From: a virus
DNA length: 33,404 bases
IMG/VR virus record: IMGVR_UViG_3300034198_007536
Coordinates: 1-33,404 of that record
Direction: 5' to 3' (one strand)
The notes under the pieces were generated by a model. It saw only the letters and a program-made list of their open reading frames with translations. It made no database searches and was not told where the DNA came from. Numbering within the stretch: the stretch's first letter is position 1; every line of letters starts with the position of its first letter. The position numbers and the translations under genes were made by a program. Shown in pieces: positions 1,270 to 33,404 of the stretch.

Positions 1270-1290
1270 AAAAATAAGAATACTTTCGAG

Positions 1291-1313
1291 GGGGCACATT
1301 CTGCCCCTTTTTT
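1291..1313 (+). terminator. intrinsic terminator after the KTSC-like gene
   Basis: GGGGCA (1291-1296), loop CATTC, TGCCCC (1302-1307), then six T (1308-1313). It closes the GC-rich gene block and shares the GGGGGCA core of the hairpins at 171, 416 and 944. Confidence 0.85.
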
Positions 1314-1560
1314 ATTTTGTCTTTTTTAGAGTTTGTTATACAACACCCCAAATGTGTGATTGTATTAATATACAGAAAACATAGGATTACAGGGTAATTA
1401 GAATTAACAGTTAATTGTAATTACAGATGTATTAGAATACACATACACATACGATTACACATGTATTACAATAATCATGTAATCTATGTTATTTGTTATT
1501 CTTTATATTCTCTAATAATTGTATAAACTGTAAATAATAGAATTTTAATAATATTAGACA
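1314..1560. other. AT-rich non-coding spacer
   Basis: There is no plausible gene here on either strand. The stretch is rich in ATTACA/TGTAAT-type words, for example ATTACAGATGTATTAG and ATTACACATGTATTAC, giving weak inverted symmetry. A degenerate copy of the downstream repeat begins at 1521 (GTATAAACTG). Confidence 0.6.
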
Positions 1561-1729
1561 GTATAAACAATTAACAGCTAATCACAATTACACAGTATAA
1601 AGAATAGACAGGTAATTACGATTAGATGTTGATTATAATAACAGTGTAATCGTAATTGCGGGTATAAAGAATAAACATCTAATTACGATTGCAAAGTATA
1701 AAGAATAAACAGTTAATCGTATGTTAACG
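1561..1729 (+). repeat. about five degenerate 34-bp tandem repeats
   Basis: Units start at 1561, 1595, 1629 (the most degenerate, 33 bp), 1662 and 1696. Four of them start GTATAAA; units 2, 4 and 5 start GTATAAAGAATA. The middle of the unit carries AATTACGATT: direct at 1614 and 1681, and as its exact reverse complement (TAATCGTAATT) at 1647-1657. TATAAAGA is one base away from the T4 late-promoter octamer. Iteron-like protein-binding sites or a degenerate promoter array are both possible. Confidence 0.75.
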
Positions 1730-1749
1730 TTAATAATAATTAACGTTAA
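1724..1749. promoter_or_regulatory. perfect 11-bp inverted repeat
   Basis: TTAACGTTAAT (1724-1734), spacer AATA, ATTAACGTTAA (1739-1749). Each arm also contains the palindrome TTAACGTTAA. It sits directly at the end of the 34-bp repeat array and upstream of the tail-tip operon. A dimeric-protein operator or an origin-like element is plausible. It is AT-rich and not followed by a T-run, so it is a poor terminator. Confidence 0.6.
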
Positions 1750-1892
1750 GCGTGTGCCAAAAAAGTACCTTCTTTCTAAGCTATAAACGTTTCCCAAAGC
1801 CCTCTAAATATTACAGGGAATTCCAAAAGTGGAATCCCCAAGAAATAAAAAAATTTCCCAGAAAATTTTTAGTAAAAAACCTTTTTTATACA

Positions 1893-2153
1893 ATGGACCA
1901 CAAAATTTCTTATAAGACCAAGGATGGAGTTATCAAGGAGCAAGTTTTTGATAATTTCAATGAATTTGCAGATACGATTGATATGCTTGCAGGAGAGCAT
2001 TATCTAGGGTCTGCTCCATCTAATATTAATGTAGAGACCATTTATGATGGCATTGTAAGGCAGGAGAAAGTTAGTTATGGATATGAATCAAATACAGGAG
2101 ACATTAATCTTCTTACAGAACAAGATAGAGGATTTAGAGAGGACAGTCAATAA
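1893..2153 (+). CDS. 86-aa hypothetical protein upstream of the tail-tip genes
   Basis: The frame is open from a GTG at 1752, but I prefer the ATG at 1893, because the extension encodes an unlikely Lys/Phe/Pro-rich leader and overlaps a structured AT-rich stretch. The protein starts MDHKISYKTKDGVIKEQVFD and contains the segment IDMLAGEHYLGSAPSNI. It appears to be a small alpha/beta protein; I recognise no family. There is no good ribosome-binding site before the ATG (CTTTTTTATACA precedes it). Its last 77 nt overlap the next gene in another frame, suggesting translational coupling in the tail-tip operon. Function unknown. Confidence 0.6.
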   Translation: MDHKISYKTKDGVIKEQVFDNFNEFADTIDMLAGEHYLGSAPSNINVETIYDGIVRQEKVSYGYESNTGDINLLTEQDRGFREDSQ

Positions 2154-2274
2154 TCTTTCAGAACCATTCGAATTAATGTACAGACCACCCGAGAGGGGAG
2201 ATCATGTAAATATTGTCGAATATCTGAACGAGATTGACAGTAGGATAAAAAAACTAGAAAATCAAGAGTTATGA
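2077..2274 (+). CDS. 65-aa coiled-coil protein
   Basis: ATG at 2077 to TGA at 2272-2274 gives 65 residues. AGGAG near 2062 supports the start; a second ATG six bases on is also possible. Heptad-like helices appear at both ends (QIQETLIFLQNKIEDLERTV and VEYLNEIDSRIKKLENQEL) around a central Pro-rich turn (MYRPPERGDH), suggesting a helical hairpin or oligomer. Small coiled-coil proteins beside tail-tip genes are common in T4-like cyanophages. The stop overlaps the start of the PAAR gene as ATGA, which indicates co-translation. A role in tail-tip assembly is inferred from position only. Confidence 0.7.
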   Translation: MDMNQIQETLIFLQNKIEDLERTVNNLSEPFELMYRPPERGDHVNIVEYLNEIDSRIKKLENQEL

Positions 2275-2594
2275 AAGGAGTAGCAATTTACATAGGTTCT
2301 GATAGTGGTGGTACAGGGGATTGTATTACTCCCCCCACCCCAGTTGGTGTTGGTCCTGAGAGATCTGTAAAGGTAAATGGAAAATCTGTGATGATTGCTG
2401 ATGATATTTTGGAACCAGCTCCTGGTAACACTCCTACAACACCACCATCGCCCTGCACAAGCCCCAGGAAGGTGGTTGCAAGTAACTCGAAGGTATTCGT
2501 CAATGGCAAGGCTCTTGCAGTCCAGGGAGACGTTCTCAGGGCGGAGACGAACATTCGAATTGCCACTGGATCTTCTACGGTTTTTGTGGTATAA
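2271..2594 (+). CDS. PAAR-like tail-spike tip protein
   Basis: 107 residues, starting at the ATG that overlaps the preceding stop. The sequence has the PAAR-type pattern of Gly/Val-rich beta hairpins: an N-terminal GVAIYIGSDSGG, then two related halves with a V-N-G-K motif (VKVNGKSVMIADD and VFVNGKALAVQGD) separated by a Pro-rich loop. PAAR proteins cap the membrane-piercing spike (gp5/gp5.4 in T4) and form a sharp metal-stabilised cone. This copy contains no histidine at all, only Cys18 and Cys62, so the usual three-His-plus-Cys metal site is not present in classic form. Its place just before the gp25-gp6 wedge genes fits a central-spike protein. Confidence 0.88.
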   Translation: MKGVAIYIGSDSGGTGDCITPPTPVGVGPERSVKVNGKSVMIADDILEPAPGNTPTTPPSPCTSPRKVVASNSKVFVNGKALAVQGDVLRAETNIRIATGSSTVFVV

Positions 2595-3126: not shown

Positions 3127-3519
3127 GTGTCGAATTTCAAATCTTTTAAAGATCTCAGTATAACATTTAAGCCTCATCCTGTTACAGGCGATTTAATTGT
3201 TGTTAAGAATGAGGCTGATGTTAAACAATCAATAGTCAATTTACTTCTTACAAATAAAGGAGAGAGATTCTTTAATTCTGATATTGGAAGTTCAATTACT
3301 GAACTTTTATTTGAAGCTTTGGATTACGGTACTGCATCATTAGTTCAATCTTATATTACCGATACATTAAATAGATACGAACCAAGAATTCGTATTTTAT
3401 CTTTAACAACATTACCAAATTTTGATGACAATGGTTTTGATGTAGATTTAGAATTTGAAATTGATGGTAGGGAAGATTTACCAGTAAATGTTAGTTTCTT
3501 TTTAGAGAGAACCCGCTAA
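3127..3519 (+). CDS. gp25: baseplate wedge protein gp25
   Basis: 130 residues. This is the GPW/gp25 family, a conserved inner-baseplate wedge protein that contacts sheath and gp6 and resembles the lysozyme-like protein of contractile systems. The family hallmark is at residues 45-63: GERFFNSDIGSSITELLFE, followed by a helix and strands (RYEPRIRILSL; FDVDLEFEIDG). Length is typical. The start is GTG at 3127, inferred because it gives the expected MSNFKSFKDLSITFKPHPVTG terminus; an ATG two bases earlier (3125) is in another frame and would not give this protein. Its stop abuts the gp6 ATG with no gap, so the two are probably translated together. Confidence 0.95.
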   Translation: MSNFKSFKDLSITFKPHPVTGDLIVVKNEADVKQSIVNLLLTNKGERFFNSDIGSSITELLFEALDYGTASLVQSYITDTLNRYEPRIRILSLTTLPNFDDNGFDVDLEFEIDGREDLPVNVSFFLERTR

Positions 3520-5319
3520 ATGGCTTATACACAGCTCACAAATCTGGATTTTACACAGATTAAAACGGCACTCAAAGATTATTTAAGATCACAATCTGAT
3601 TTTACTGGTTATGATTTTGAGGGATCTACGTGGAGTCATTTATTAGACGTTCTTGCATATAATACTTATTATACAGCATTTAACACCAATATGGTGGTAA
3701 ATGAATTATTTTTAGATTCAGCAACTTTAAGAGATAACGTTGTCACGATTGCCAAGCAGTTAGGTTATATTCCCAAATCAACTACAGCACCAAAAGCAAG
3801 TGTAGATTTTAATGCAAATTTTTCTTCATCATCACCAAGTACAATTACCTTAAAAAAAGGTTCTGGATTTGTAACCACATATGATGGGAAGATGTATAAT
3901 TATGTGGTAATTACAGATTATAAACAAGTTGTGAATGGGGGAGTTGCTCAATTTAGAAATGTTCCAATTTATGAAGGTACTTTAATAACAAATTCTTATG
4001 TAGTTGATACCTCATTAAATTTTCAAAGATTTATTATAGATAACCCATCAGTTGATACAAATACGATTGTAGTAAAAGTATTTCCATCACAAGGATCAAC
4101 TAGTTATGTTTTATATGATGCTGCTAAAAATATTTTAACCGCAACACCAGATTCAAATATCTATTATATCAATGAAATTGAAGATGAAAGATATGAAATT
4201 GTATTTGGTGATGGTATTTTAGGAAGAAAATTAGTTCATAATGAATATATTGAAGTATCTTATTTAATTACAAGTGGTCCTGAAACAAATGGTTCAAGAG
4301 TTTTTACGTTTAGTGGTATTTTAGAAGACGACCAAGGAAATTCTAATTACTCTGTTTCAATTACTAATCTACAGACAATTAGTGCTTCTGATGGTGGTGA
4401 AGACATAGAGACAGTTTCAAGTATTAAATATAATGCTCCTCTTAATTATGGTGCTCAAAATCGAGCAGTAACTTCATCTGATTACAGTGTGATTATTCGA
4501 AATATATATCCAGCTATAGCTGATATTATTGTTTATGGCGGGGAAGAGGCATCACCACCTGAATATGGAAAAGTAAAGATAGTTATAAAACCAAAAAATA
4601 GCAATAGACTATCAAATTTTACAAAACAGGATATAGTTAAAAAATTAAAACCATATATGGTCGGTTCTGTAACATGTGACATTATAGATCCTTCAATTGT
4701 TTATATTGAAGCTGTAAGTTCAATATTTTATGATACAAAAGTAACCACATTAACTCCGATTGAAATAAAATCTAGAGTACTACAATCTATACAAGATTAT
4801 ATAAGTTTATCGGAAACGGAAAAATTTAACGGAAAATTCAGATATAGTAAATTTGTTTCTGTTGTTGATGGTGCAGATCATTCTATAAAATCAAATCGAA
4901 CTAAAATAACATTAAGAAAAGATTTTTATCCATTATTAAATACATCAACTTATTACGAATTGTGTTTTCAAAATGAATTTGATGTAAATTGTGATATACC
5001 TAGCGTAACATCAACTGGGTTTGTTGTTAGTGAGCACCCAAGTTATACGTCATATTTGGAAGATCGTAATGGTAAAATGGTACTATATAGAATAGATTCG
5101 GGACTTAACGAAAAAATAGTATTAAATAATTTTGTGGGTACAGTAGATTATATGAAAGGCGAAATAAAATTAAATAATCTCACAATTATTAAAGGATCTT
5201 TTGAAGATAATAAAATACAAGTAAGAGTAAGACCTAAATTTAATGATATTATTGCATCAAGAAATGTTTATTTAGATGTTGATATTCAAAATAGCAATTT
5301 TACTGCATATCCAGAGTAA
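3520..5319 (+). CDS. gp6: baseplate wedge protein gp6
   Basis: 599 residues, a little shorter than T4 gp6 (660). gp6 dimerises to form the inner ring that ties the wedges together around the tail tube and drives baseplate opening. Recognisable features: the N-terminal segment SDFTGYDFEGSTWSHLLDVL, then AYNTYYTAFNTNMVVNELFL and ATLRDNVVTIAKQLGYIP (residues 25-90), typical of the gp6/gpJ family, followed by beta-rich domains and GDGILGRKLVHNEYIEVSYL. The ATG follows the gp25 stop immediately, so there is no independent leader. The protein is Asn/Ser/Ile-rich in keeping with the low GC. Position between gp25 and the large wedge gene agrees with T4-like order. Confidence 0.93.
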   Translation: MAYTQLTNLDFTQIKTALKDYLRSQSDFTGYDFEGSTWSHLLDVLAYNTYYTAFNTNMVVNELFLDSATLRDNVVTIAKQLGYIPKSTTAPKASVDFNANFSSSSPSTITLKKGSGFVTTYDGKMYNYVVITDYKQVVNGGVAQFRNVPIYEGTLITNSYVVDTSLNFQRFIIDNPSVDTNTIVVKVFPSQGSTSYVLYDAAKNILTATPDSNIYYINEIEDERYEIVFGDGILGRKLVHNEYIEVSYLITSGPETNGSRVFTFSGILEDDQGNSNYSVSITNLQTISASDGGEDIETVSSIKYNAPLNYGAQNRAVTSSDYSVIIRNIYPAIADIIVYGGEEASPPEYGKVKIVIKPKNSNRLSNFTKQDIVKKLKPYMVGSVTCDIIDPSIVYIEAVSSIFYDTKVTTLTPIEIKSRVLQSIQDYISLSETEKFNGKFRYSKFVSVVDGADHSIKSNRTKITLRKDFYPLLNTSTYYELCFQNEFDVNCDIPSVTSTGFVVSEHPSYTSYLEDRNGKMVLYRIDSGLNEKIVLNNFVGTVDYMKGEIKLNNLTIIKGSFEDNKIQVRVRPKFNDIIASRNVYLDVDIQNSNFTAYPE

Positions 5320-5324
5320 ATTAA

Positions 5325-8300
5325 ATGTATAGAACTAACAGAAAAATTTCAACCTTAATTGAATCTCAGTTACCAAGTTTTATTGCTTCTGAATATGAGT
5401 ATTTTTCTAAATTTTTAGAAAAATATTATCAACATTTAGAATCTACTGGAAATGTATTAGATATAATTAATAACATTATAACCTATAGTGACATAGATTT
5501 TTATGATAGTAGTGTATTTACTAAGTATACCACAGTATCTTCTAATTTTTCCTCTTCTGCCGATAGCATTACTGTAGAAGATGCTACATCATTTCCAGAA
5601 GAAAATGGATACATAAAAATTGATGACGAAATTTGTTTTTATCAAAATAGAACAACTACTCAATTTTTAAATGTAAGTAGAGGTATTAGTGGTACTACAA
5701 AATTAGGAGATTTGTATGAAAGCTCTACTTTTATAACTACCAATTCTTCCTCTCATTTTTCTGGAGCAAAAGTATATAATTTAAGTAATTTGTTTTTATA
5801 TGCTATTGCCAAGCATTTTGAAAGCCAATATTTACAAAATTTTCCAGAAAAATATTTAAATGAAACGGTAAATAAAAAATCTTTAATTAAAAACATAAAG
5901 CAATTTTATCAGTCAAAAGGAACTGAATCATCAATTAAATTTATTTTTAATTCTATAATAGCAAAAACTCCCGATAATATTCCTGAAGTATTTTATCCAA
6001 AAGATAGTACACTAAAACTATCAACGTCAGATTGGAATAGCACAAATTCAATTAGAGTTAAAATAGTTTCAGGAGATCCTTTTGATTTAATTGGTCAAAA
6101 TATTACACAAAATGTAAATGGAATTATTTCTTCTGCTGTAGTTGATAATGTTTTGCAAAGAAATATATCTGGCAATTCTTTTTATGAATTGGTTTTAGCG
6201 CCAGATTCAATAGTTGGTGAATTCAAAATTGCGTCCAAAACTAAATTAAGAAAACAATTATCTAATATAGAAACAAATAGAATAAATGTAATTTCAACTT
6301 ATGGGTGGAATGAAAATGGTAGTTTATTAATTGGCAATGAAATTATTGATTATTCAGTTAAAAATATTACTCAGTTGTCAATAGTAACAAGATTAAATCC
6401 TGCACTACAACCTGTAGATTCTGATGTTTATAGTTTATCCGAACAAATAGTATTCAATGATGTAAAATTTATTGTATTTGGTGTTTTTTATAATTCCAAT
6501 AATATTAATAATGTTTTATATTCTTCAAAAAATGATGCAATACAATTTAATACATCTGGAATAACATCCAAGGACCCAATTATTTACAACAAAAAAACAA
6601 ATACAAATAGATGGATATTCAATAATACTAGCCCAAATGTACCCAGTAATCCAACAATACAACAAATAGTATCAAATTTTACAGTAGATACATCAGCAAT
6701 TTTTGAAAATTTTGAATATTATTATATTTGTTCTTCGGGTATCCCATCACATTCTATTTTAACAAGTGCAGTATCGATTGCACCTTCAGAACAAAAAATA
6801 CTAAGATTAATCAAAAAAACACCAGTAACAACAACAGAAATATATAAAACTCCTTCTAGAGATGTTGGTATTTTTGTAAATGGAGTTTTGGCGTATGGTT
6901 GTAAAGATGATCAGTATATTTCATATGGAAAAATTATTTCTTCTAAAATAATAGCTAGTGGTTCTGGTTATACTCAGCCACCATATGTTTTGATAAATGG
7001 AGAACCAAATAAAGCTATTTCAACCATAGCAGGAGGAGTTGTAGAAAAAATAGAAATTACATCCGATGAAATTTTTTCTTTTATACCTACTGTTGAGATA
7101 GTTTCTGGGAGAGGTGCTAAAGCAAAAGCTATAATTACTAAAGATAAAATTACTAGTATTAAAGTAATAAATGCGGGAGAATATTATTCAGCTCCGCCTA
7201 AAGTATTAATTTTGGATTCAACTGGGAAAGGAAAATTTGCCGAGTATAAAGCAGTTTTAAATAATTATGGTCAAGTAGTAAATTTTGTTCAAGTTAACGA
7301 AGGTAAATTTTATAGTAAAGGTAATGTTACTGTCGAATTGATAGAAGATGCTAGGAATACAGAAGCAAAAGCAGAAGTTGATATAAAAAAATGGCACAAA
7401 AATAGATATTTCATAAATTCAACAAAATTAGATTCTTCAAATGGATATCTATTCCAAGATTTTAATTCAGTAAATTTGCCAAATAAAACTTATGGTTATG
7501 GATATGTTGCAAATCCAAAACAGTTGCGTTATAGTCTTTCTGATAACATAGAATCTAATTTATCATCAGAAACTTCAATAAAAACTCATTCCCCGATATT
7601 GGGTTATGCATATGACGGCAATCCAATTTATGGTCCTTATGGTTATTCGAATCCATTAAATAATTCATCACAAATTGTTAGATTATCCAGTGGGTATTCT
7701 CAAAATAATTCAAGAACTTCTGGTCCTTCAATTACTGAATATCCTTTAGGATCGTTTACGGATGATTATACATGGATATCATCAGTAAATTCTGGAAAAA
7801 CTGTTTTAGATAGAAACAATGGAAGATTTTGTGTAACACCAGAATATCCTAGTGGCGTATACGCTTATTTTATAACTATTACAAATACAAATATTCCTGT
7901 TTTTCCTTATATTTTGGGAGAAAATTATTATTCTCTCCCAACAGAATTAAATTACACAACAAATATTTCTCAAGAAAATTTACCAAAAGACATAAAAAGA
8001 GTAAAAAATATTTCTAATATCAACGGAATTGGATCAAAAGCAGTAGTCGATGAAATATTTTCTGGTTCTGTTGATAAAGTAGATATTCAATATTCAACTG
8101 AATGCTTTAATGTAGGAAATTCTTTAATCATAGACAATAGTGATACTGGCGGGGAAGGTGCTCAGGCAATAGTTTCATCTATTAAAGGAAAACAAGTATC
8201 TTCAATAGAATCAGTTCAGACAAAAGCATTTTTATTAAATACAAAAAAACCTGTGTATTTTTATGATGGAGATATTATTACTCAGGATTCAACCAATGCA

Positions 8301-11300
8301 AATGGAACTATAGTTGGTAATGTTTTTGATACAAATACTGTTGTATTACGTAATGTCGAAGGATTATTCAATTCATCAGATCTAATATCTTCTTCCACAA
8401 ATGTAATAAAAATTATTACGAAAGATAATTGCACATTTAGTTCTGGAGAAACTTTATATTTAACTAATAACGATGGATCTACCATAGCCACTGGAATTAT
8501 TTTAAATTCAATAACTTTTCAAAACACAATTAAAGTAAAAGTATTGACTGGTCAGTTTTCAGTAGTTACTACACATTATTTGAAAAGTTCTAAATTAAAT
8601 GATAGTACTGGTATTTTCATATCTTCTATAGAATCCATAAGTCAAGATATAGAATTATTAAATGTAAATGAAAATATAGCTGTTGTATCTACTACAGAAC
8701 CTCACAATTTATCTGTTGGTGATTTAGTTGATATAGATATAAATCCAGATACTCAAACAACACAAACCACATATTATGTAAGAAAAAAATATTACCAAGA
8801 AATAAAATTAACACCTCCATCTATAAATTGTCAAATTGATAATACTGGTATAAGTAGGTATCAATATTTAAATGGAGGATTTGATTATGAAACAGGTCAA
8901 TATCTTGATGTAGAATTAATTTTTAATGATACCACAAAAATAAGATCCAATGTTGGTAATATAGGAAATGTTAATAATGCTAGAGCTAATATTACAGTAA
9001 ATAATATTAATGGTAGTGGAAGAGGTATTGCCAAAATTGATTCTATTTCTGTTCAAGGATTTGGTTATAAGAAAGGAGATATATTAACGGTAACAGATGA
9101 GTCATTAAATAGATTTCCAGGAAGCATTTCTACACAAAGATTATTATTTGTAGTGGATCATGTTGGATTTTCAAAAGAAGAAACATTATTAAAAGTAAAT
9201 AATGTAAATAATATTTCCATAGATGATGATATTATAATTGATGAAGAAATTTTAACAGTCACTAATGTAGATTCACCATCAAAAACATTAACTGTTATTC
9301 GCGGAACAAACAATACAGTTATAAAAGATCATTATAATGCATCTTTTGTCAATTTATATAATCCAAAATATAGATTTACACAAAATTCTAGACCAATCGG
9401 TGTATCGCAAAATAATCCATATATTTCGAAATTTGATAATAATAATTTAATATGTTTTTATGATTATAATGTTTCCAATCCTAATAGTATAACATTATCT
9501 TCTACGTTTAATGATGCAAGTACACCAGCAAAAAAAGTCACAATTAGTAGCGTAGAATCACCTTATTATCAATTTGAATTTTCGAAAAATAATACCCTCA
9601 ATTTTATAAATGATCCTGTCATTGAAATTACAAATAATTATCAATATAAATTTGATACCAGCCATTCCTCTTTAGTTAATACATATTTCGATATATCTCC
9701 TGGTATTAACAATAATATTATATCAGTAGAAATGCTTTCGAATTCTATTGAGCCAGGATCTTCTGGGTCTTTTTCCATATTAAAAACAGGTTTTGTAACA
9801 AAATCTTATTTAAACAACAATTTGCAATATGTTAAATCTGATATTGTAAAATATTCAAAATATTATTATTACGATAAAAATAATAATATAAAATCAAATG
9901 GTTATTTAAATTTAATTTTGGATCCATTGCAAGGTCAAAAAACAATTATATACAAATCAAATGATAAATTTGTATATTCTTTATCAAAACTTCCAATTTT
10001 TGATGGTTCTGGTGTAATTTCATATACAACTACATCCAATTCAGCCATAGGTAATATTAATGATGTTTTTATTACAAATTATGGCAATAATTATGCAAAA
10101 ATTCCAATTGTTAAAGGTGTAGAAATAGCATCAAATTACGAAGCTAATGCTGAAGTTGTGTATGATTCTATAGAAAAAAATATAAATTCAGTTTTAATTT
10201 TAAATCAAGGCAGTAATTATGTAAAACCAATTGTTTTTGTTGAAGGAGATGGTTTTGGCGCTAAATTTGAAGTCATTACAAGTTATGGAAAAATAACAAA
10301 AATCAAAGTAATTGATAAAGGAAAAAATTATACAAAAAAACCAGTATTAAAAATCATAGAGTCAAATGTAAAAATATTTTTAGATTCTTCAAATATAGGA
10401 ATTCCTAAAAATATTAATATTATTGACAACGGGTACGAATATACTAATGATTATTCTACAATTAATGATTTAAAATTGCCTACTATTCTATTTTTATATA
10501 ATTTTGAATACGATTCTTTTTATTTGGGAGAACAAATATTCCAAACTGATATTATAAATGGACAAGAAGTAGAGATATGTTCAGGAGTTGTAACTGATGA
10601 TGGTTGGCGTTATGGTAGTAATATATTAAAATTAAAAAATATTATAGGAACTTTTGATGAAAATTTACCTATAAAAGGCAGAACAAATAATAAAACAGCT
10701 AATATAAAAAAAATAATTAATAATAATTTTTCTCCTATTGTAAAATCATACTATGATAACAATGGTCAATATAATTCAGATAAAGGAATACTAAATTCTT
10801 TTTCTCAAAATATAACAGATTCTTATTTTTACCAAGATTATTCTTATGTTATAAAATCAAAATCTCAACTAAAAGAGTGGAAAGATATAATTTTAAATAG
10901 TACACATCCAGCTGGATTTAAAGTATTTGGAGAATTATCAATAGAAAATGATTCTACAATTGGGATGGGTAATAACGTTTCTCCGTTTAAATCAATTACA
11001 TTTATAAATGCAGCTGTTAAAAATGTCAAAGTTGTTGAAACTCCTAGAATTTCAATAACAGAAACAGTTTTAAATTATGATGATATTAATATAGAAAAAG
11101 GATTTGGATCTATTTCTATTGATACATTTAACAATACAGAAACATTATCTAATGAATTAATTCTTTCTCCAAAATTTGATGGCAAATATGATGAATCAAC
11201 TGGAAATTTAGTTGGAACTAAAACATTTACTTTATTAGATAAAAAATCTAGACTTGCATTTTCTCCATATAATGAACAACAATTAATGATAAGTATTGAT

Positions 11301-13088
11301 GGTATTATACAAGAACCAAAAAAATCCTTTAAAATATCTGGCAATCAAATTACATTTGCTGAACCACCATTAGGAGAAAGAAAAGAAAAATTTGGGGCAA
11401 ATGACAACGAATATAAAATTATTCCTGCTCAAAATTTTTATTGCAAATCATTTAAATTTAAAGATAATAATTTAAATTCAAAATACTTGAAAAAAATAAA
11501 AAATATATCATTTGCTTTTGATGGAATACAAAATGAATTTGATTTATATTATGAAAATGGAAGTATAGTAAAAACAGATCCTCAAGAAAAATTAATAGTT
11601 TGTTTAAATGGTGTTTTACAAAAAGCAAAAAAATATTATAACGAACCATCTAAAAATTCTTATTATATCGAAAGAAATTCTGATTCTAATATTACTGATA
11701 AAATTATATTCAGTAGTGCTCCAATATCTTATGGTGATATATACGAAAATTCTAATAGTAGGGTGAATACTTTTGAAAAATGCTTTATTTATAGTATAGC
11801 ATCTTATGAGAGATTTACTATAGATAAATCTTTAATTCCATATAAAAAATCTGGACCATATTTAATTACAAATGAAATAACCGACAAAGTAACTCAAATT
11901 GATAATTCTCAATATCCACTGGTTTTTGTTGATGGGATTTTACAAAATAATAAAAAATCATATGAAATAGTTGGCGCAACTATAACTTTTAGTGAACCAT
12001 TAAATTATTACATTTCAGAATCAGGCGAAGAAATATATTCTGATGTTTCAATTATTTTACCATATGGTAGAGATTTAGAAAAATCATTAACTTTATATGA
12101 TTTCGAACCAGATACTTATTATAATACTATATTAATTACATTACAAGGTTCTGATATTTACAACACAGTTAATGCCTTATATAATGGATTAAATGATTAC
12201 GATAAAGTATTGGTATATCAAGGAAATAATTTATATGGTGAATTAAAAAATATTTCTGGATCTGGTGATAATGTCATATTAACTGCCATAAATTCTAAAA
12301 ATTTGATACGAGAAAATTTTGATAATTCTAGTAATATAAAATTAAATATAAATGGTTCTGATAGTACAATCACAGGAACATATAGTATAATTTTTGATTA
12401 CAAAAAAGATTCTGATGGAAATAAAATTTTGCAATATGGTGCTTATACTGGAAGATCTTTGTATGGAACAGCATACAAAGAAGAAATCGAAGAAAGAAGA
12501 AAATTAAAAAGAATTTGTAAAATTTATCCTGGAGATATGATAAAAATTGACGGGGAAGATGAATTTAGAAAAATACTTTCAATTTCTAATAATGTCCAAC
12601 CAAAAAATAACATTTCTGGCGAATATGCATCTTCTGAAATATTCACAACCGCATTAGCAACTAATTATAACGGTATTCAAAAGGGCGAAGGACTTAGTGT
12701 TTTTGCTAATATATCAAATGGGACTATAACAAATTTAACATGGAATAGAAAAGAATTAGAATTATTTTTTGAAAACGATATTTTACTACAACCAACTGCA
12801 TATCAATATTATACAAATCCTATTTTACAATTTATTCCTGTAGATGGTAATGGAGGCGGAGGTAAGGCAGAAGTTTTAGTTCACGATGGTCAAATTCTTG
12901 ATGTGATATTAATAAATGGTGGCAAAAATTATACAGATAATCCTATTGTAAAAGTTGCTAGGAATTTTTCTATAAAAAAACAAAATCCTAGAAAAATTAC
13001 TTGTAAAATACATACAGGATCAATAACGACATATTCAAATCAAACATTAGCAATAAGGATAGCCACTACATTTACTACAGAGGAATAA
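5325..13088 (+). CDS. giant baseplate-wedge-type structural protein with YHYH domain (position of T4 gp7)
   Basis: 2587 residues, about 2.5 times T4 gp7 (1032). The N-terminus (SQLPSFIASEYEYFSKFLEKYY, then NKKSLIKNIKQFYQSKGTES near residues 185-205) matches the opening of large T4-like cyanophage virion proteins that follow gp6. Residues about 755-875 are a YHYH domain (GYAYDGNPIYGPYGY; NGRFCVTPEYPSGVYAYF; FPYILGENYY). The rest is a string of small beta modules: 'E-ICFYQ...VSRG' modules near 79-140 and 1284-1345, G-x-G-Y-x-x-P-P repeats near 546, 620, 1627, 1665 and 2532, and three 'DGIIQ-P-K-SF' modules near 1980-2022, 2086-2142 and 2196-2248. Start ATG at 5325, 5 nt after the gp6 stop, without a clear ribosome-binding site. 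True homology to gp7 is not shown here; the assignment is positional. Confidence 0.82.
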   Translation: MYRTNRKISTLIESQLPSFIASEYEYFSKFLEKYYQHLESTGNVLDIINNIITYSDIDFYDSSVFTKYTTVSSNFSSSADSITVEDATSFPEENGYIKIDDEICFYQNRTTTQFLNVSRGISGTTKLGDLYESSTFITTNSSSHFSGAKVYNLSNLFLYAIAKHFESQYLQNFPEKYLNETVNKKSLIKNIKQFYQSKGTESSIKFIFNSIIAKTPDNIPEVFYPKDSTLKLSTSDWNSTNSIRVKIVSGDPFDLIGQNITQNVNGIISSAVVDNVLQRNISGNSFYELVLAPDSIVGEFKIASKTKLRKQLSNIETNRINVISTYGWNENGSLLIGNEIIDYSVKNITQLSIVTRLNPALQPVDSDVYSLSEQIVFNDVKFIVFGVFYNSNNINNVLYSSKNDAIQFNTSGITSKDPIIYNKKTNTNRWIFNNTSPNVPSNPTIQQIVSNFTVDTSAIFENFEYYYICSSGIPSHSILTSAVSIAPSEQKILRLIKKTPVTTTEIYKTPSRDVGIFVNGVLAYGCKDDQYISYGKIISSKIIASGSGYTQPPYVLINGEPNKAISTIAGGVVEKIEITSDEIFSFIPTVEIVSGRGAKAKAIITKDKITSIKVINAGEYYSAPPKVLILDSTGKGKFAEYKAVLNNYGQVVNFVQVNEGKFYSKGNVTVELIEDARNTEAKAEVDIKKWHKNRYFINSTKLDSSNGYLFQDFNSVNLPNKTYGYGYVANPKQLRYSLSDNIESNLSSETSIKTHSPILGYAYDGNPIYGPYGYSNPLNNSSQIVRLSSGYSQNNSRTSGPSITEYPLGSFTDDYTWISSVNSGKTVLDRNNGRFCVTPEYPSGVYAYFITITNTNIPVFPYILGENYYSLPTELNYTTNISQENLPKDIKRVKNISNINGIGSKAVVDEIFSGSVDKVDIQYSTECFNVGNSLIIDNSDTGGEGAQAIVSSIKGKQVSSIESVQTKAFLLNTKKPVYFYDGDIITQDSTNANGTIVGNVFDTNTVVLRNVEGLFNSSDLISSSTNVIKIITKDNCTFSSGETLYLTNNDGSTIATGIILNSITFQNTIKVKVLTGQFSVVTTHYLKSSKLNDSTGIFISSIESISQDIELLNVNENIAVVSTTEPHNLSVGDLVDIDINPDTQTTQTTYYVRKKYYQEIKLTPPSINCQIDNTGISRYQYLNGGFDYETGQYLDVELIFNDTTKIRSNVGNIGNVNNARANITVNNINGSGRGIAKIDSISVQGFGYKKGDILTVTDESLNRFPGSISTQRLLFVVDHVGFSKEETLLKVNNVNNISIDDDIIIDEEILTVTNVDSPSKTLTVIRGTNNTVIKDHYNASFVNLYNPKYRFTQNSRPIGVSQNNPYISKFDNNNLICFYDYNVSNPNSITLSSTFNDASTPAKKVTISSVESPYYQFEFSKNNTLNFINDPVIEITNNYQYKFDTSHSSLVNTYFDISPGINNNIISVEMLSNSIEPGSSGSFSILKTGFVTKSYLNNNLQYVKSDIVKYSKYYYYDKNNNIKSNGYLNLILDPLQGQKTIIYKSNDKFVYSLSKLPIFDGSGVISYTTTSNSAIGNINDVFITNYGNNYAKIPIVKGVEIASNYEANAEVVYDSIEKNINSVLILNQGSNYVKPIVFVEGDGFGAKFEVITSYGKITKIKVIDKGKNYTKKPVLKIIESNVKIFLDSSNIGIPKNINIIDNGYEYTNDYSTINDLKLPTILFLYNFEYDSFYLGEQIFQTDIINGQEVEICSGVVTDDGWRYGSNILKLKNIIGTFDENLPIKGRTNNKTANIKKIINNNFSPIVKSYYDNNGQYNSDKGILNSFSQNITDSYFYQDYSYVIKSKSQLKEWKDIILNSTHPAGFKVFGELSIENDSTIGMGNNVSPFKSITFINAAVKNVKVVETPRISITETVLNYDDINIEKGFGSISIDTFNNTETLSNELILSPKFDGKYDESTGNLVGTKTFTLLDKKSRLAFSPYNEQQLMISIDGIIQEPKKSFKISGNQITFAEPPLGERKEKFGANDNEYKIIPAQNFYCKSFKFKDNNLNSKYLKKIKNISFAFDGIQNEFDLYYENGSIVKTDPQEKLIVCLNGVLQKAKKYYNEPSKNSYYIERNSDSNITDKIIFSSAPISYGDIYENSNSRVNTFEKCFIYSIASYERFTIDKSLIPYKKSGPYLITNEITDKVTQIDNSQYPLVFVDGILQNNKKSYEIVGATITFSEPLNYYISESGEEIYSDVSIILPYGRDLEKSLTLYDFEPDTYYNTILITLQGSDIYNTVNALYNGLNDYDKVLVYQGNNLYGELKNISGSGDNVILTAINSKNLIRENFDNSSNIKLNINGSDSTITGTYSIIFDYKKDSDGNKILQYGAYTGRSLYGTAYKEEIEERRKLKRICKIYPGDMIKIDGEDEFRKILSISNNVQPKNNISGEYASSEIFTTALATNYNGIQKGEGLSVFANISNGTITNLTWNRKELELFFENDILLQPTAYQYYTNPILQFIPVDGNGGGGKAEVLVHDGQILDVILINGGKNYTDNPIVKVARNFSIKKQNPRKITCKIHTGSITTYSNQTLAIRIATTFTTEE

Positions 13089-13091
13089 AAA

Positions 13092-13625
13092 ATGCCAATA
13101 AAAAAATCTTTTTCTTCTTGTTATTATGGATTCAATAAAGAAAATAAAGAATTATTAATTTTTAGATTTTCTAGTGGATTAGTTCCACAAACAAAAATAT
13201 TTTTTGATAAATCATATAAATGTACAAATTTAAATACACAAAAAACATACGAAAATTTATTTTGTTCTAGTTATAATTATACCGTGAGTAATTTAAATTT
13301 TGATATATCAAATTCATTAAAATCATCATCTATTGTAGTAAATTTTCATAAAATTTCAGAATCATCCAATCACTTAACTCCAATTTACAATCAATCTTTG
13401 CATTGTTTTGGCACATATTTAGAATTACCTATGAATGAATCAGAAACAACAATATATGTTGGAGATACAACCAATTTTCCAGATACTGGAACACTTATTG
13501 TTGGGGGAGAAATAATTAATTATAATAAAAAATATTTTGATAGATTTACAAATTTAATTAGAGGATGTGATGGTTCCAAGCCAAAATCACACAATTCTGG
13601 TGAGTACGTAAGGACATTTTGTTAG
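13092..13625 (+). CDS. 177-aa virion-associated protein with C-terminal beta module
   Basis: ATG at 13092 lies 3 nt after the preceding stop, with GAGGAAT inside the end of the large gene as ribosome-binding site. The N-terminal 110 residues (SSCYYGFNKENKELLIFRFSS and following) are unfamiliar and unusually rich in Cys for this cluster. The C-terminal part (about 116-174: TTIYVGDTTNFPDTGTLIVG, then EIINY and LIRGCDG) is the same 'E-I-Y...RG' beta module seen twice in the upstream giant wedge protein. This suggests a structural partner that docks in the baseplate, but the function is unassigned. Late-promoter elements follow immediately. Confidence 0.85.
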   Translation: MPIKKSFSSCYYGFNKENKELLIFRFSSGLVPQTKIFFDKSYKCTNLNTQKTYENLFCSSYNYTVSNLNFDISNSLKSSSIVVNFHKISESSNHLTPIYNQSLHCFGTYLELPMNESETTIYVGDTTNFPDTGTLIVGGEIINYNKKYFDRFTNLIRGCDGSKPKSHNSGEYVRTFC

Positions 13626-13629
13626 AGGT

Positions 13630-13643
13630 TATAAATATAAATA
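13630..13643 (+). promoter_or_regulatory. tandem T4-type late promoters before gp8
   Basis: Two exact TATAAATA octamers overlap by two bases (13630-13637 and 13636-13643), 29 bp upstream of the gp8 ATG. The exact match and position suggest gp8 and downstream genes have their own late transcript. Confidence 0.8.
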
Positions 13644-13671
13644 ATACAGGAATTTTAAACGGGATCTTTAA

Positions 13672-15570
13672 ATGGCTGCTATAATTTCAGATAAATTTAG
13701 AATTTTAAATGCTCAGCAATTTTTAAATTCTCTTGGTGATGATTATATTAACGAAGCAAATTCAGCTATTGTTACTGGAGCTGGAGCTGAATTAGCTAAA
13801 ATGTATTTTTTCATTGGTAGACCTCAAGATTGGGATACTACATTAGAAATTTACAGCAAATCTTCAACTGCTTTTACTACTTCTGATGTAGTATATGTAG
13901 GTAGTAATTTGAATTCTGCAACTTTTAAAGCTAACGTAAGAAAAGTTAATGAAAATAGTTTAGTATTATATAATATAATTGGAAATGCAACTTTTTCTCT
14001 AGGTACTATTTTAAAAGCATCTAATGGCTCTGCCGATACAGGCGCAACTGCTTTAACTGGTGTTTACAGATTTTCTGATGAAAATGTTCCTGTAATTCCT
14101 GCAGATAATCAAAAAGAAAAATATGATATTTATAGTGATTTAATCGCAGCAAAAAGAATCACAACAAAATATTGTAGAACTGTAATTACAAGATACAATT
14201 GGAATTTGATTGCTCATCCAAAATTTGATATGTGGAAGCCTGATTATTTACAATCTTCATCTGGCTATCAAATTGGTAAATCTACAGCTACTGGAGCATC
14301 TTCGTTTTATGATTCAAAATATTACGTAGTAAATTCAAATTACGAAGTATTCAAATGTCTTTATAATGGTCAAAATCAAGCAAATCCAAACGGACAAAAT
14401 GCTACAAATGAACCTACTACCACTCCAGGTGGTGGACAAGGAAGTTATGATAGTTCAAGAAAAATATACACAGAACCAACTGGTACTGCTGAATATGTTT
14501 GGAAATATATGTACACTATTCCTACTGATGATGTATTAAAATTCCTATCAACTGATTTTATGCCGATTGTAGAAGCCACTAATGCTTCCAGATCTGCTGT
14601 TGTTAGTGCTGCTGTAGACGGAGCAATTGATGTTGCTTTAGTTGTCGATGGAGGTAGTGGATTTACTTCTGATGGTGATAAATATGCACCTATTATTGGA
14701 GATGGCACTGCTGGTGTAGTTAAATTAACTTTTTCTGGTGGAGTACTAACAAAAGCAGTTATTCACAATCCAGGTAAAAACTACACTTATGGAACTGTTT
14801 CGTTGGTAACTGGATCTGGTAGTGGATCTTCAGCAATTGGTTTGTGGAGTAATGTAAATATAACAGATCCAAATAATCCTGTATTTAGCACAAGCACTAC
14901 AGTTCCATCTGGAGCAAAAGCTTTTGTAGAACCTATTATTTCTCCCGAAGGAGGTCATGGTTCAAACCCAGAGAAAGAATTGAATGGAAAAAGAATTATG
15001 ATTAACGTGAGATTAACTTCAACAGAAGGTACTGCTGGTGGAGAAACTACTAAAGATTTCCCAGTAGATAATGATTTTAGAAGAATTGGTATAATCAAAG
15101 ATCCTGTTGTAAATGGGTCCACTGCAGTTGCAACCGCATCAACTTTAAACGGGTTGTATGCTTTAAAAATTAACAACGCAACAGCAAATTATCAAGTAGA
15201 CGAAATTATCGAACAAACAGTCACTGGTTCTAAAAAAGCATACGGAAGAGTTGTGTCTTGGGTTTTAGATTCTGGTAGCACAACATCAGGAGTATTAAAA
15301 TATATTCAAATTCCTTCGGAACATTCTTTTGAAGGAAAGGTAAGATCATTTGAGTCAAGTGCTAACGCAGTTAGTAGCGCATCAGCTTCTGGTGTTGTAA
15401 ACACAGGACTTGCCAACAATACTGTATTATTAGGTTGCACATTTACTGGTGGTTTAGCTTCTCCAGAGATTAAAAGAAACTCTGGAGATATCATATACAT
15501 AGAGAATAGAAAAAAAATTGTTAGATCTAATGATCAAATAGAAGATATTAAATTAGTAATAGAATTCTGA
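13672..15570 (+). CDS. gp8: baseplate wedge protein gp8
   Basis: 632 residues, larger than T4 gp8 (334) and in the range I expect for cyanophage gp8. gp8 is a dimeric wedge protein that links gp7-type and gp10-type subunits in T4. The N-terminal half shows SDKFRILNAQQFLNSL, KMYFFIGRPQDWD (near residues 43-56) and RYNWNLIAHPKFDMW, typical of gp8 of T4-like cyanophages, and later EYVWKYMYTIPTDDVLKF. Residues about 320-398 insert a Gly-rich G-x-G-F/Y repeat module shared with the neighbouring giant proteins. It has its own tandem late promoters upstream and GGGATC as a weak ribosome-binding site. Slightly less AT-rich and richer in Ala/Gly than the flanking giants. Confidence 0.92.
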   Translation: MAAIISDKFRILNAQQFLNSLGDDYINEANSAIVTGAGAELAKMYFFIGRPQDWDTTLEIYSKSSTAFTTSDVVYVGSNLNSATFKANVRKVNENSLVLYNIIGNATFSLGTILKASNGSADTGATALTGVYRFSDENVPVIPADNQKEKYDIYSDLIAAKRITTKYCRTVITRYNWNLIAHPKFDMWKPDYLQSSSGYQIGKSTATGASSFYDSKYYVVNSNYEVFKCLYNGQNQANPNGQNATNEPTTTPGGGQGSYDSSRKIYTEPTGTAEYVWKYMYTIPTDDVLKFLSTDFMPIVEATNASRSAVVSAAVDGAIDVALVVDGGSGFTSDGDKYAPIIGDGTAGVVKLTFSGGVLTKAVIHNPGKNYTYGTVSLVTGSGSGSSAIGLWSNVNITDPNNPVFSTSTTVPSGAKAFVEPIISPEGGHGSNPEKELNGKRIMINVRLTSTEGTAGGETTKDFPVDNDFRRIGIIKDPVVNGSTAVATASTLNGLYALKINNATANYQVDEIIEQTVTGSKKAYGRVVSWVLDSGSTTSGVLKYIQIPSEHSFEGKVRSFESSANAVSSASASGVVNTGLANNTVLLGCTFTGGLASPEIKRNSGDIIYIENRKKIVRSNDQIEDIKLVIEF

Positions 15571-26616: not shown

Positions 26617-26955
26617 ATGGCTGCCGTTAGAGTTAATTTACAAGTAGATCAAGGAGCAGATTTTTCTGCTATATTTAACTTAACAGATGGTGTTGTATTA
26701 TTAGATTTAAACAACTACACTGTAGAAGCTGTTTTTGGTTATAATTTTTCTACTACAAATAGAACTAGTTTTACTATTGATGTTTTAGATGCTATTAATG
26801 GTAAAGTAGAATTAAAATTATCATCTTCTCAAACTTCGGCATTAAAATTAGCACGATATGTTTACGATATTTTAGTTATTTCCTCAGAAGAATTGGGGGG
26901 AACAAAAACTAGAATTGTTGAAGGAATATTAGAAGTTTCTCCTGGAGTATCCTAA
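26617..26955 (+). CDS. 112-aa BppU-like fibre adaptor protein
   Basis: ATG at 26617 with AGGGGG upstream; the stop TAA overlaps the fibre start as TAATG. The sequence VRVNLQVDQGADFSAIFNLT, then a beta-rich middle, LARYVYDILVISS and TKTRIVEGILEVSPGVS at the C-terminus resembles the short all-beta protein that precedes tail fibres in cyanophages and is related to the BppU N-terminal (DUF2479) fold. BppU-type proteins attach receptor-binding fibres to the baseplate. The tight coupling to the fibre gene supports a paired structural role. The family link is from sequence pattern, so moderately secure. Confidence 0.78.
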   Translation: MAAVRVNLQVDQGADFSAIFNLTDGVVLLDLNNYTVEAVFGYNFSTTNRTSFTIDVLDAINGKVELKLSSSQTSALKLARYVYDILVISSEELGGTKTRIVEGILEVSPGVS

Positions 26956-29900
26956 TGGCAGAATATACAGTTCCCGTAAACACAGATCCTGGACAAGTAA
27001 CTACGTCTACAGGTGGAGATGTTCAATATGGAGCTACAGTTGCTGGAACTGGAGAAACAACAACTGGCACTGTATTACAAGGAACTCAAGGCACCCAAGG
27101 AACTCAAGGAACTCAAGGAATTCAAGGATTAAATGGTTCTCAAGGATTAAATGGCTTACAAGGTTTAACTGGTTTAATCGGAAATCAAGGTATTCAAGGT
27201 TCTCAAGGTTTAAGAGGATCTGTCGGAAGTCAAGGAATTCAAGGAGAAATTGGAGCGCAAGGAATACGTGGAACAACAGGTATTCAAGGTTTAGATGGTA
27301 TTCAAGGTCAACGAGGTCTTGTTGGTAATCCTGGCGTACAAGGATTGCAAGGTATTACTGGTTCACAAGGATCGCAAGGAATTAGAGGATCACAGGGAGA
27401 ACAAGGTCTTCAAGGAACTAGAGGACTTACTGGCAATCAAGGAACTCAAGGTATTCAGGGAGAAAAAGGTTCAACTGGATTCAAAGGAGAAACTGGTTCT
27501 CAAGGATCTCAAGGAATTTATGGTTCTCAGGGGTCTCAAGGATTACTTGGTTTACAAGGTTCTACTGGATCTGGAGCACAAGGTTCTCAAGGTATACTTG
27601 GAATTCAAGGTCCATATGGTATTCAAGGACCAGAGGGACAAATTGGAATTCAAGGAGAAATTGGAATTCAAGGTTTTAGAGGTTTAGTTGGCTCTATTGG
27701 TTCGCAGGGAATACAAGGTATAAAAGGATTAGTTGGAGAACCAGGATCTCAAGGTATTCAGGGTATTAGGGGACCAAGTGGTTTATTGGGAAGCCAAGGA
27801 ACCCAAGGTATTCAAGGTAGTAGAGGTATAGGCAGTCAAGGATCGCAAGGAATACAAGGAGATTTTGGAACTCAAGGATTTAAAGGATCTCAAGGTGTTC
27901 AAGGTGAAAAAGGACTTCAAGGCATTCAAGGTAATCAAGGAACTATTGGATCCCAGGGATCATATGGAGTACAAGGTTCTACTGGATCTGGAACACAAGG
28001 TTCCCAAGGAACAATAGGAATACAAGGTAATTTAGGTATTCAAGGATCTGTTGGAGAAAAGGGTGTCCAAGGAAGTGCTGGAATTATTGGTTCTCAAGGA
28101 ACACAAGGAATTTCTGGTACTCCTGGATCTTTAGGTATTCAAGGACCAAGAGGATTTGTTGGAAATACTGGAGTTCAAGGAATTCAGGGTTCTCAAGGAT
28201 TTGATGGCTCGCAAGGTATTCAAGGTGCAAAAGGTAATTTAGGAATTCAAGGTATTCAAGGTGAAAGGGGATTGCAAGGTTTTTATGGCAATCAAGGAAC
28301 TCAAGGTATTCAAGGCGAAAAAGGAGTAAAGGGAGATAATGGAACCCAAGGTATTTTTGGATCTCAAGGAACAAAAGGAGCCGTAGGTCTTCAGGGAACA
28401 GATGGTGCTCAAGGTCAACGCGGATTAGTAGGAAATCCTGGCGCACAAGGTAATCAAGGAACCCAAGGCATCCAAGGAAGACAAGGAACTCAGGGTAATC
28501 AAGGTATTCAAGGACCTCAAGGACTTCGAGGAGCACAAGGTCTTAGTGGTTTATTTGCTGGTCAAGGTATTCAAGGACCTCAAGGATCTCAAGGATTAGA
28601 AGGACTTCAAGGAGTACAAGGATTAGAAGGACTTCAAGGACTTCAAGGAACTCAAGGTATCCAAGGATCTCAAGGAACTCAGGGCATTCAAGGAAACCAA
28701 GGAACTCAAGGTATTCAAGGAACCCAAGGGATTCAAGGACCTCAAGGTGTTCAAGGAAGACAAGGATCTCAAGGTATTCAAGGAACCCAAGGAATTCAAG
28801 GCATTCAAGGTATTCAAGGAAGACAAGGAACTCAAGGTATCCAAGGAATTCAAGGAGAAAAAGGAATACAAGGTTTTTATGGCAATCAAGGAACTCAAGG
28901 TATTCAAGGAAGACAGGGTATTCAAGGAATCCAGGGATCTCAGGGCACACAAGGTAACCAAGGAATCCAAGGTATACAAGGAATTCAGGGTATACAAGGA
29001 AGACAAGGAACTCAGGGTACTCAAGGCACTCAAGGTATCCAAGGAACTCAAGGTATTCAAGGTGAAACTGGTATACAAGGTTTTTATGGAATTCAAGGAG
29101 CCACTGGTAGTTTTGGTGGTGCTACATTTGACTATACATTTTCAACAAATACAGAAAATACAAATCCAGGAAACGGAATATTAAAATTAAATAATATTAA
29201 TTTTAATTCTAGTTCTATACTTTATATAAGTGGAAAAGATGATGATTTAGATTCTATTTCTTCATTTTTACAAACTATTGATGATTCTACCTCATCCATA
29301 AAGGGACATTTTACAATAAGAAGTAAACAAAATCCTTCAATATTTTCTATATTTTCTATAGTAAATAATATTTCTTATGATGATGTAGATAATTATTTTG
29401 CAGTTCCCATAGCTTATTTGTCTGGTGAAACCTCATTTCAAAATAATTTAGATATATTAATAACATTTGCAAGAACTGGAGATATCGGTGATAGAGGACC
29501 ACAAGGAATTACAGGTATTCAAGGCAATGTTGGTATTCAAGGACCATTAGGAAATCAAGGTATTCAGGGGGTACAAGGACCACAAGGAACCACTGGTATT
29601 CAAGGTAATCAAGGTACTCAAGGATTAAGAGGTTTTACTGGTAATACAGGAACACAAGGCGCACAAGGAAATACTGGTGTTCAAGGATTTTATGGTATTC
29701 AAGGTACTCAAGGAATACAAGGTACACAAGGATTGCAAGGAGAAAGAGGAATACAAGGAAATCAAGGAATTCAGGGCATTCAAGGATCTCAAGGTATTCA
29801 AGGTATTCTAGGTATTCAAGGAAATCTTGGTATTCAAGGTTCTAGAGGTTTTACTGGAGATACAGGACCACAAGGAATTACTGGTTTAACTGGTATACAA

Positions 29901-32900: not shown

Positions 32901-33404
32901 AATTACGTCGATGTTTTCTTAAATGGTATTAAATTAGATTCCAGTGAATATACTGCTACTAATGGCACTAGTGTAATTTTATCTTCTGGTACTAGTGCGG
33001 GAGATATTTTAGAATTTGTTAGTTATGAATTATTAGTTTTGGGAATACAAGGTTCCCAAGGTACACTTGGAATTCAAGGTATTATAGGATTACAAGGAAT
33101 TTCTGGAACAGATGGAGTGGATGGAATTCAGGGGTTTGATGGTATTCAAGGATTTGATGGAATACAAGGTATTAAAGGATTGCAGGGAATTCAAGGACAT
33201 TATGGAATTCAGGGTAATCAAGGAACTCAAGGAGTTCAAGGTCTCCAAGGTCTTCATGGTCAATTTGCTGGTCAAGGTGTCCAAGGACCACAAGGAACTA
33301 CAGGTATTCAAGGAAACCAAGGAACTCAAGGTATTCAAGGAAACCAAGGAACTACAGGTATCCAAGGAAACCAAGGAACTACAGGTATCCAAGGAAACCA
33401 AGGA
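26955..33404 (+). CDS. giant collagen-like tail fibre, partial at the 3' end
   Basis: ATG at 26955 opens a frame with no stop to the window edge: 2150 residues so far. After an unusual Thr/Gly N-terminus ([20 protein letters not shown]) a Gly-X-Y region begins at residue 43, overwhelmingly G-x-Q (GIQ, GTQ, GPQ). Seven collagen-like blocks (about 1500 residues) alternate with globular inserts: A1 718-845, B1 1004-1111, C 1243-1300, B2 1503-1616, A2 1674-1802, D about 1958-2030. A1/A2 are homologous (FDYTF...[27 protein letters not shown]). B1/B2 are cupredoxin-like. D is a V-F-L-N-G fibre module. The N-terminus probably anchors through the preceding adaptor and the distal end, outside the window, would recognise the host. 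Confidence 0.95.
27081..29105 (+). repeat. collagen-like block 1, about 675 residues
   Basis: Nine-base units of the type GGx-NNN-CAA encode Gly-X-Gln. Three register slips with a two-residue glycine spacing occur: G-S-G in 'GSTGSGAQG' near 27560, G-I-G near 27822, and G-S-G again near 27970. The near-exact repetition makes this region prone to recombination and mis-assembly. Confidence 0.93.
29964..30285 (+). other. cupredoxin-like domain B1 with intact copper ligands
   Basis: Fibre residues 1004-1111. Strand pattern [19 protein letters not shown] then [21 protein letters not shown]. Candidate type-1 copper ligands: His1047, Cys1093, His1096, Met1099. The C-x2-H-x2-M spacing is that of amicyanin. 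Metal binding is inferred, not shown. Confidence 0.75.
31461..31800 (+). other. cupredoxin-like domain B2, ligands lost
   Basis: Fibre residues 1503-1616, homologous to B1 ([33 protein letters not shown]). The four aligned ligand positions are replaced: His to Asn1550, Cys to Ser1598, His to Tyr1601, Met to Ser1604. Confidence 0.75.
33294..33404 (+). repeat. 27-bp tandem repeats at the right edge
   Basis: Four 27-bp units start at 33294, 33321, 33348 and 33375, each encoding GT(T/Q)GIQGNQ. The last two are identical, and a fifth begins at 33402 where the window stops. Confidence 0.92.

Follow-up and report, generated by a model that had tools for sequence, protein, structure and literature searches.

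A noncoding element that occurs once per genome is conserved in the same gap of nearly all T4-like cyanophages tested, and in some lineages a phased 34-bp repeat array ending in a palindrome lies directly upstream of it. We tentatively read the region as a T4-type, transcription-linked replication origin in which the array would provide lineage-specific binding iterons, a reading that falls somewhat short of an even chance. That the element is the one conserved origin of the Kyanoviridae, to which some lineages added the iteron array and the terminal palindrome, is possible but less probable again. Kyanoviridae are the main T4-like phages of marine picocyanobacteria.

Genomic setting of the intergenic region

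The window, i.e., the whole stretch of DNA analysed, is a 33.4-kb IMG/VR fragment (33,404 nt; IMGVR_UViG_3300034198_007536) of a T4-like cyanophage (Kyanoviridae). The closest annotated DNA comes from phages of Synechococcus and Prochlorococcus, and the T4-like character proposed in the initial annotation holds, because gp25 and gp6 are clear and a PAAR protein is encoded upstream of both. Coordinates are collected in Table 1. The array, the palindrome and the conserved element share a single gap; the median intergenic length in the relative S-PM2d is 6 bp (PMC5931967). Comparison with Sf-FR1 places the start of the downstream gene at the ATG at 1893, and not at the GTG (1752) that opens the mechanical ORF. 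No ORF of at least 60 aa lies within 1270-1892 and only chance short frames appear there at a threshold of at least 20 aa, which rules out coding repeats.

The G+C content is ~65% at 1-990, in the small-ORF region that precedes the gap, versus ~30% at 2800-33404, the profiled part of the structural block. A strong G+C drop near the element is also seen in S-PM2, P-SSM2, S-CAM3 and S-RSM4, although not in every phage. At the far end, a giant open frame (26955-33404) carries very long CAAGGNNNN tandem repeats and runs past the window end.

Table 1. Features of the intergenic region and its flanks in the window.
Feature	Position	Strand	Basis
Intergenic region of 623 bp with array, palindrome and conserved element	1270-1892		ORF scan
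Terminator-like hairpin and T run of upstream gene ORF92	1288-1317	+	Same hairpin at the same place in L033, L119 and L107
Degenerate upstream repeats, 17-bp phased	1382-1552		TRF (1382-1438, period 17); repeat family D1
34-bp iteron-like array; unit of an AT block (GTATAAAGAATA) and a ACAnnTAATTACGATT block	1553-1718	+	TRF, shuffles, box scans, relatives
Reversed AATTACGATT box	1648-1657	-	Box scan
Terminal palindrome, 11-bp arms, 4-nt loop	1724-1749		Perfect inverted repeat; dyad conserved in relatives
Family-wide conserved single-copy element, model R1	1755-1815	+	BLAST, alignment, pattern and model searches
Universal core CTAAGCTATAAA; consensus CTAASCTAYAAA	1776-1787	+	One per genome in 7 complete genomes
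Late-promoter-like TAAATA stretch, imperfect in the window	1803-1812	+	Alignment columns +43 to +51; in most relatives, not all
A/T-rich leader with AAAAAAATTTCCCAG; first ATG at 1893	1816-1892	+	Sequence
First downstream small ORF, function not assigned	1893-2153	+	ORF list, Sf-FR1 comparison
PAAR protein (T4 5.4-like)	2271-2594	+	PF05488 E=5.9e-9; phrog_281
Baseplate genes gp25 and gp6	3127-5319	+	phrog_261 4.6e-51; phrog_219 2e-207

The tandem array and its terminal palindrome

TRF reports a tandem array with a 34-bp period, 4.9 copies, 66% matches and a score of 104. In 1000 dinucleotide shuffles of 1330-1753, the top score at any period of at least 10 was 74, and no array with a period of 30-38 was obtained. 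The autocorrelation peaks at lags 34 (0.55) and 101 (0.66), with a shuffle maximum of 0.519. The array of about five units described in the initial annotation is thus confirmed, together with the partial copy at 1521, and weaker repeats with 17-bp phasing extend back to 1382. The 34-bp unit itself consists of two 17-bp halves, partly reversed. The box AATTACGATT is found at 1614-1623 (+), 1648-1657 (-) and 1681-1690 (+), the second being the inverted copy that had been noticed at the outset; GTATAAAGAATA recurs at 1595, 1662 and 1696, and AATYACRATT occurs six times in the window against 1.4 expected. The array is therefore real, noncoding and, as described below, lineage-specific.

The inverted repeat said to close the array is perfect (TTAACGTTAAT-aata-ATTAACGTTAA). 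By itself it is poor evidence, because arms of at least 11 bp arose in 4 of 300 shuffles and are not rare in such AT-rich DNA; its significance derives from its conservation in relatives.

A single-copy element conserved downstream of the array

The initial annotation had missed the family-wide element that lies directly downstream of the array. A BLAST search with the gap returned short unannotated matches in several cyanophages, directly 3' of the array position. The aligned matches share the core AAAAAGTACCKTCTNTCTAASCTAYAAM, followed in most of them by TAAATA and the AAAAAAATTTCCCAG leader, and an exact-pattern scan of IMG/VR matched 114 stretches. Model R1 matches once in all 15 named Kyanoviridae records (14 named phages plus P-SSM4) apart from P-RSM6, which has an additional match no better than chance (E 0.046), and once in each IMG/VR record tested (4 + 100 records). 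In S-PM2, Syn9, P-SSM2 and others, the model matches only the 3' part of the element, core included. Two matches are weak: the one in P-SSM2 (E 0.012) was accepted because it is located in the expected gap, and the one in G102, the record of L136 (E 0.0057), was taken as chance. No R1 match was found in P-HM2, S-TIM5, S-CRM01, HTVC008M or T4.

Each of seven complete genomes (177-252 kb) contains a single copy of the 12-nt core CTAASCTAYAAA, co-oriented with the downstream genes, whereas the late motif NATAAATA occurs 37-61 times per genome in the same set. In the annotated genomes that were checked, the element occupies the gap that separates the small-ORF (early) cluster from the late structural block; gp25, where it comes next, lies a few kb downstream. 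The element is located at 53.5 kb in Syn9, 25.1 kb in S-PM2 and 69.1 kb in P-SSM2. The distance from the core to the ATG has a median of 127 nt (IQR 109-129; 112 loci). Structured RNA was ruled out, as the element has no conserved fold (consensus energy -0.19 kcal/mol, 0 covarying pairs) and no Rfam match.

At element columns 20 and 24 (window positions 1780 and 1784), two linked forms, AAGCTATAA and AACCTACAA, are found in approximately equal numbers (27 C/25 G and 27 C/25 T, respectively), which base pairing does not explain. In three loci of phages without the array (L039, L043 and L117), the DNA upstream of the element repeatedly shows near-palindromic CTAAGTGACACTTAG-like boxes. S-CAM7 has a direct repeat of 28 bp x 2.9 just upstream of the element (L018 3878-3956); it is unrelated to the array, so repeats have arisen at this site more than once.

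Distribution and drift of the array in relatives

Absence from close relatives, named in the initial annotation as a refuting observation, does not apply here: the array recurs in 17 other loci and is absent from many more, while the adjoining element is nearly always present. Upstream DNA was sufficient in 119 of the loci with the element; 18 of these (window included) carry at least two TTAYGATT-type boxes there and 99 carry none. Conversely, four of the five loci picked up through the repeat pattern alone have the element just downstream. L136, likewise retrieved through the repeat pattern, was discarded as a chance match, with no core beside its repeats and a weak model match (11.7 bits) elsewhere. 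The repeats occur in certain marine and lake viruses that infect photosynthetic bacteria, and the array is thus a lineage-specific extension of a family-wide site.

In most array loci the 33/34-bp period is retained, frequently along with its 17-bp half; the period in L102 is not significant on its own. The AT blocks vary between phages (GTATAAAGAATA, TAATTATAATTA, TATTATTAATA). A long terminal palindrome is present in 16 of the 18 array loci, and its two arms change together, as in the pairs CGTTAATTA/TAATTAACG and CGTTTATTA/TAATAAACG. Because phasing and dyad persist while the sequence drifts, the array is more likely to be bound by proteins than to be a mere product of slippage. The suggestion that the repeats are degenerate late promoters is not supported and was rejected: the TATAAAGAATA block becomes TAATTATAATTA or TATTATTAATA in relatives while the spacing and the other block persist, and NATAAATA has 0 matches in 1270-1892.

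Strand composition around the element

GC skew, proposed at the outset as a check for origin activity, shifts locally and not globally. Skew is positive nearly all round the seven genomes, without a genome-wide inversion, and global skew was consequently dropped as proof of an origin. At the element, all seven genomes show a local jump from G-poor to G-rich sequence, i.e., from lower to higher skew. The jump lies at percentiles 98.8, 99.8, 98.4, 89.8, 99.4, 94.8 and 96.0 when all positions are counted, and at 90.1, 98.2, 88.7, 98.9, 97.4, 98.4 and 93.8 at third codon positions of same-strand ORFs; the seven genomes are related, and hence these values are not independent. The low skew upstream spans a few kb only and could reflect the gene content of the hypervariable region. 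The leader and the array are A/T-rich, with an AT percentile near the element that ranges from 52 to 99 among genomes. In T4, three active origins are located near compositional shifts (PMC3016281).

Comparison with known origins

The setting resembles that of T4 oriE, which is located upstream of 5.1-5.4(PAAR)-6 (annotated at 79355 in T4), as the window site is located upstream of PAAR-gp25-gp6, with gp25 inserted between PAAR and gp6 in the window. Phased direct repeats are present in both. However, the sole strong array nearby in T4 consists of 24-nt coding repeats inside gene 5 (79402-79569), whereas the window array is intergenic and noncoding, has a period of 34 and lies outside gene 5; model R1, moreover, has no counterpart in T4. 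Homology to the T4 oriE repeats was rejected because those repeats form part of the gene 5 coding sequence. For the T4 iterons themselves, no role has been defined (PMC3016281). The 24-nt repeats at the gene 5 3' end (L219 2903-3070) may correspond to the published oriE iterons, in which case those iterons would belong to protein-coding sequence.

With respect to the R-loop origins oriF and oriG of T4, a promoter-like core followed by ~100 bp of A/T-rich transcribed sequence would fit the minimal plan (PMC3016281). A difference is that a MotA site is not expected here, cyanomyoviruses being devoid of motA (PMC2984593). Iteron-type plasmid origins such as R6K gamma share with the window the phased direct repeats, the AT-richness and the inverted repeat at one end, but no Rep initiator gene was recognised among the flanking ORFs scanned and 1270-1892 has no DnaA boxes, and the 34-bp unit of the array is built from two partly reversed 17-bp halves.

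Proposed function and alternatives

The iteron-plus-palindrome layout had been likened to a replication origin or a multi-site operator. That likeness fits and is strengthened by the conserved phasing, the dyad in relatives and the single-copy neighbour, and protein binding, unwinding, priming and replication are the steps that we infer. The region would act in cis as an initiation site where the small-ORF (early) cluster of Kyanoviridae phages meets the late structural block. Its obligatory part would be the element, with a unique promoter-like or protein-binding core and the A/T-rich transcribed leader next to it, and a transcript in this leader could prime leading-strand synthesis. The array and palindrome (1553-1749) would be a lineage-specific addition of AT-rich phased sites for a phage or host protein, which may help to open or load the site. 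We favour an origin because the element is found once per genome, against 37-61 copies of the late motif, in a constant gap and conserved without RNA structure; because most array loci keep phasing and palindrome, and four of five loci picked through the repeats carry the element; because skew jumps locally at the element in seven genomes; and because T4 oriE occupies a comparable gap, three active T4 origins lie near compositional shifts, and oriF and oriG consist of a promoter and an A/T-rich unwinding element (PMC3016281). The single origin predicted for Syn9 (PMC2984593) also counts toward this reading. Several observations count against it: 1270-1892 contains no DnaA boxes, no Rep gene or family was recognised among the flanking ORFs scanned, the skew does not invert genome-wide, R1 finds nothing in five phages, most relatives are devoid of the array, and the tight start-codon distance and same-strand orientation suit a promoter equally.

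The latter observations lead to a less probable competitor, a unique transcription control site without a role in replication. Transcription of the late structural block would start from the core as a one-off promoter or an activator or repressor site, and a phage regulator would use the array as its multi-site operator. The element always precedes the genes downstream and has their orientation, at a tightly kept distance from the ATG; a TAAATA late-promoter-like stretch comes next in most phages, and terminator-like hairpins close the upstream genes. A unique promoter fits this distance and co-orientation nearly as well as an origin does. Nevertheless, the downstream genes vary between phages, so the element has no fixed partner gene; phage promoter motifs recur, unlike the core with its one copy per genome; the + strand of the element has no sigma-70-type promoter; and the late stretch is not universal. 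Promoter and origin are in any case compatible, as T4 origins can be transcription-primed.

The array or element might also be a packaging-initiation (pac) site bound by the terminase, with the first headful cut close by, which we consider improbable. S-PM2 virion reads are 2-3-fold denser just downstream of the ORFanage (5,799-15,339), which the authors of that study ascribe to terminal redundancy (PMC4503421); this dense region favours a pac site, with the S-PM2 element at 25,140. We also examined contig ends in 104 IMG/VR contigs, window included, of which 53 are at least 20 kb; shorter ones are biased by viral hallmark genes downstream. Also in favour of a pac site, ends fall within 3 kb upstream of the element in 20 of the 53, against 3.9 expected, and downstream in one. 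These ends are scattered over 0-3 kb with no single position, which hypervariability explains, and were rejected as physical termini; the excess upstream may reflect the variable region, an assembly break or a packaging end. Besides, the window proteins scanned include no recognised terminase.

Least probable of all is a recombination or modular-exchange junction, i.e., a PeSL-like anchor that holds the variable small-ORF border, with the array having arisen incidentally through slippage in AT-rich DNA. Arbiol in 2010 and Comeau in 2014 reportedly worked on the PeSL cassettes of T4-type phages. The element does lie on the edge of a variable small-ORF region, with changes of gene content right beside it, and variable genes of cyanophages co-localise with recombination (PMC6722890). 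As portrayed in PMC4503421, PeSL cassettes resemble the region in being intergenic regulatory modules beside a stem-loop in a shuffling region, but they are multi-copy and dense in such regions, whereas the element is conserved across the family with one copy per genome. Slippage, furthermore, poorly explains a constant 33/34-bp phasing with changing sequence or a palindrome conserved through paired changes.

Significance for T4-like cyanophages

We found no earlier description of the element or the array in the open papers searched. Phage sites that act in cis in initiation or control and contain iterons are a known kind of structure; this form of it is new. T4-like cyanophages occur throughout the oceans (PMC3037559), and on the start of their replication the literature found is limited to the single-origin prediction for Syn9 (PMC2984593). 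A single-copy noncoding element, present at the same map junction in nearly all members tested, provides a precise, testable site, and the element and array together are a good candidate, open to direct test, for the start point of DNA copying. Should the region prove to be a master promoter or a packaging site instead, it would still be a shared cis element not found described in the papers searched. The array indicates that phased putative binding sites can be gained beside the element in some lineages and, if the single-origin reading is true, a T4-type transcription-primed origin would have acquired plasmid-like initiator sites.
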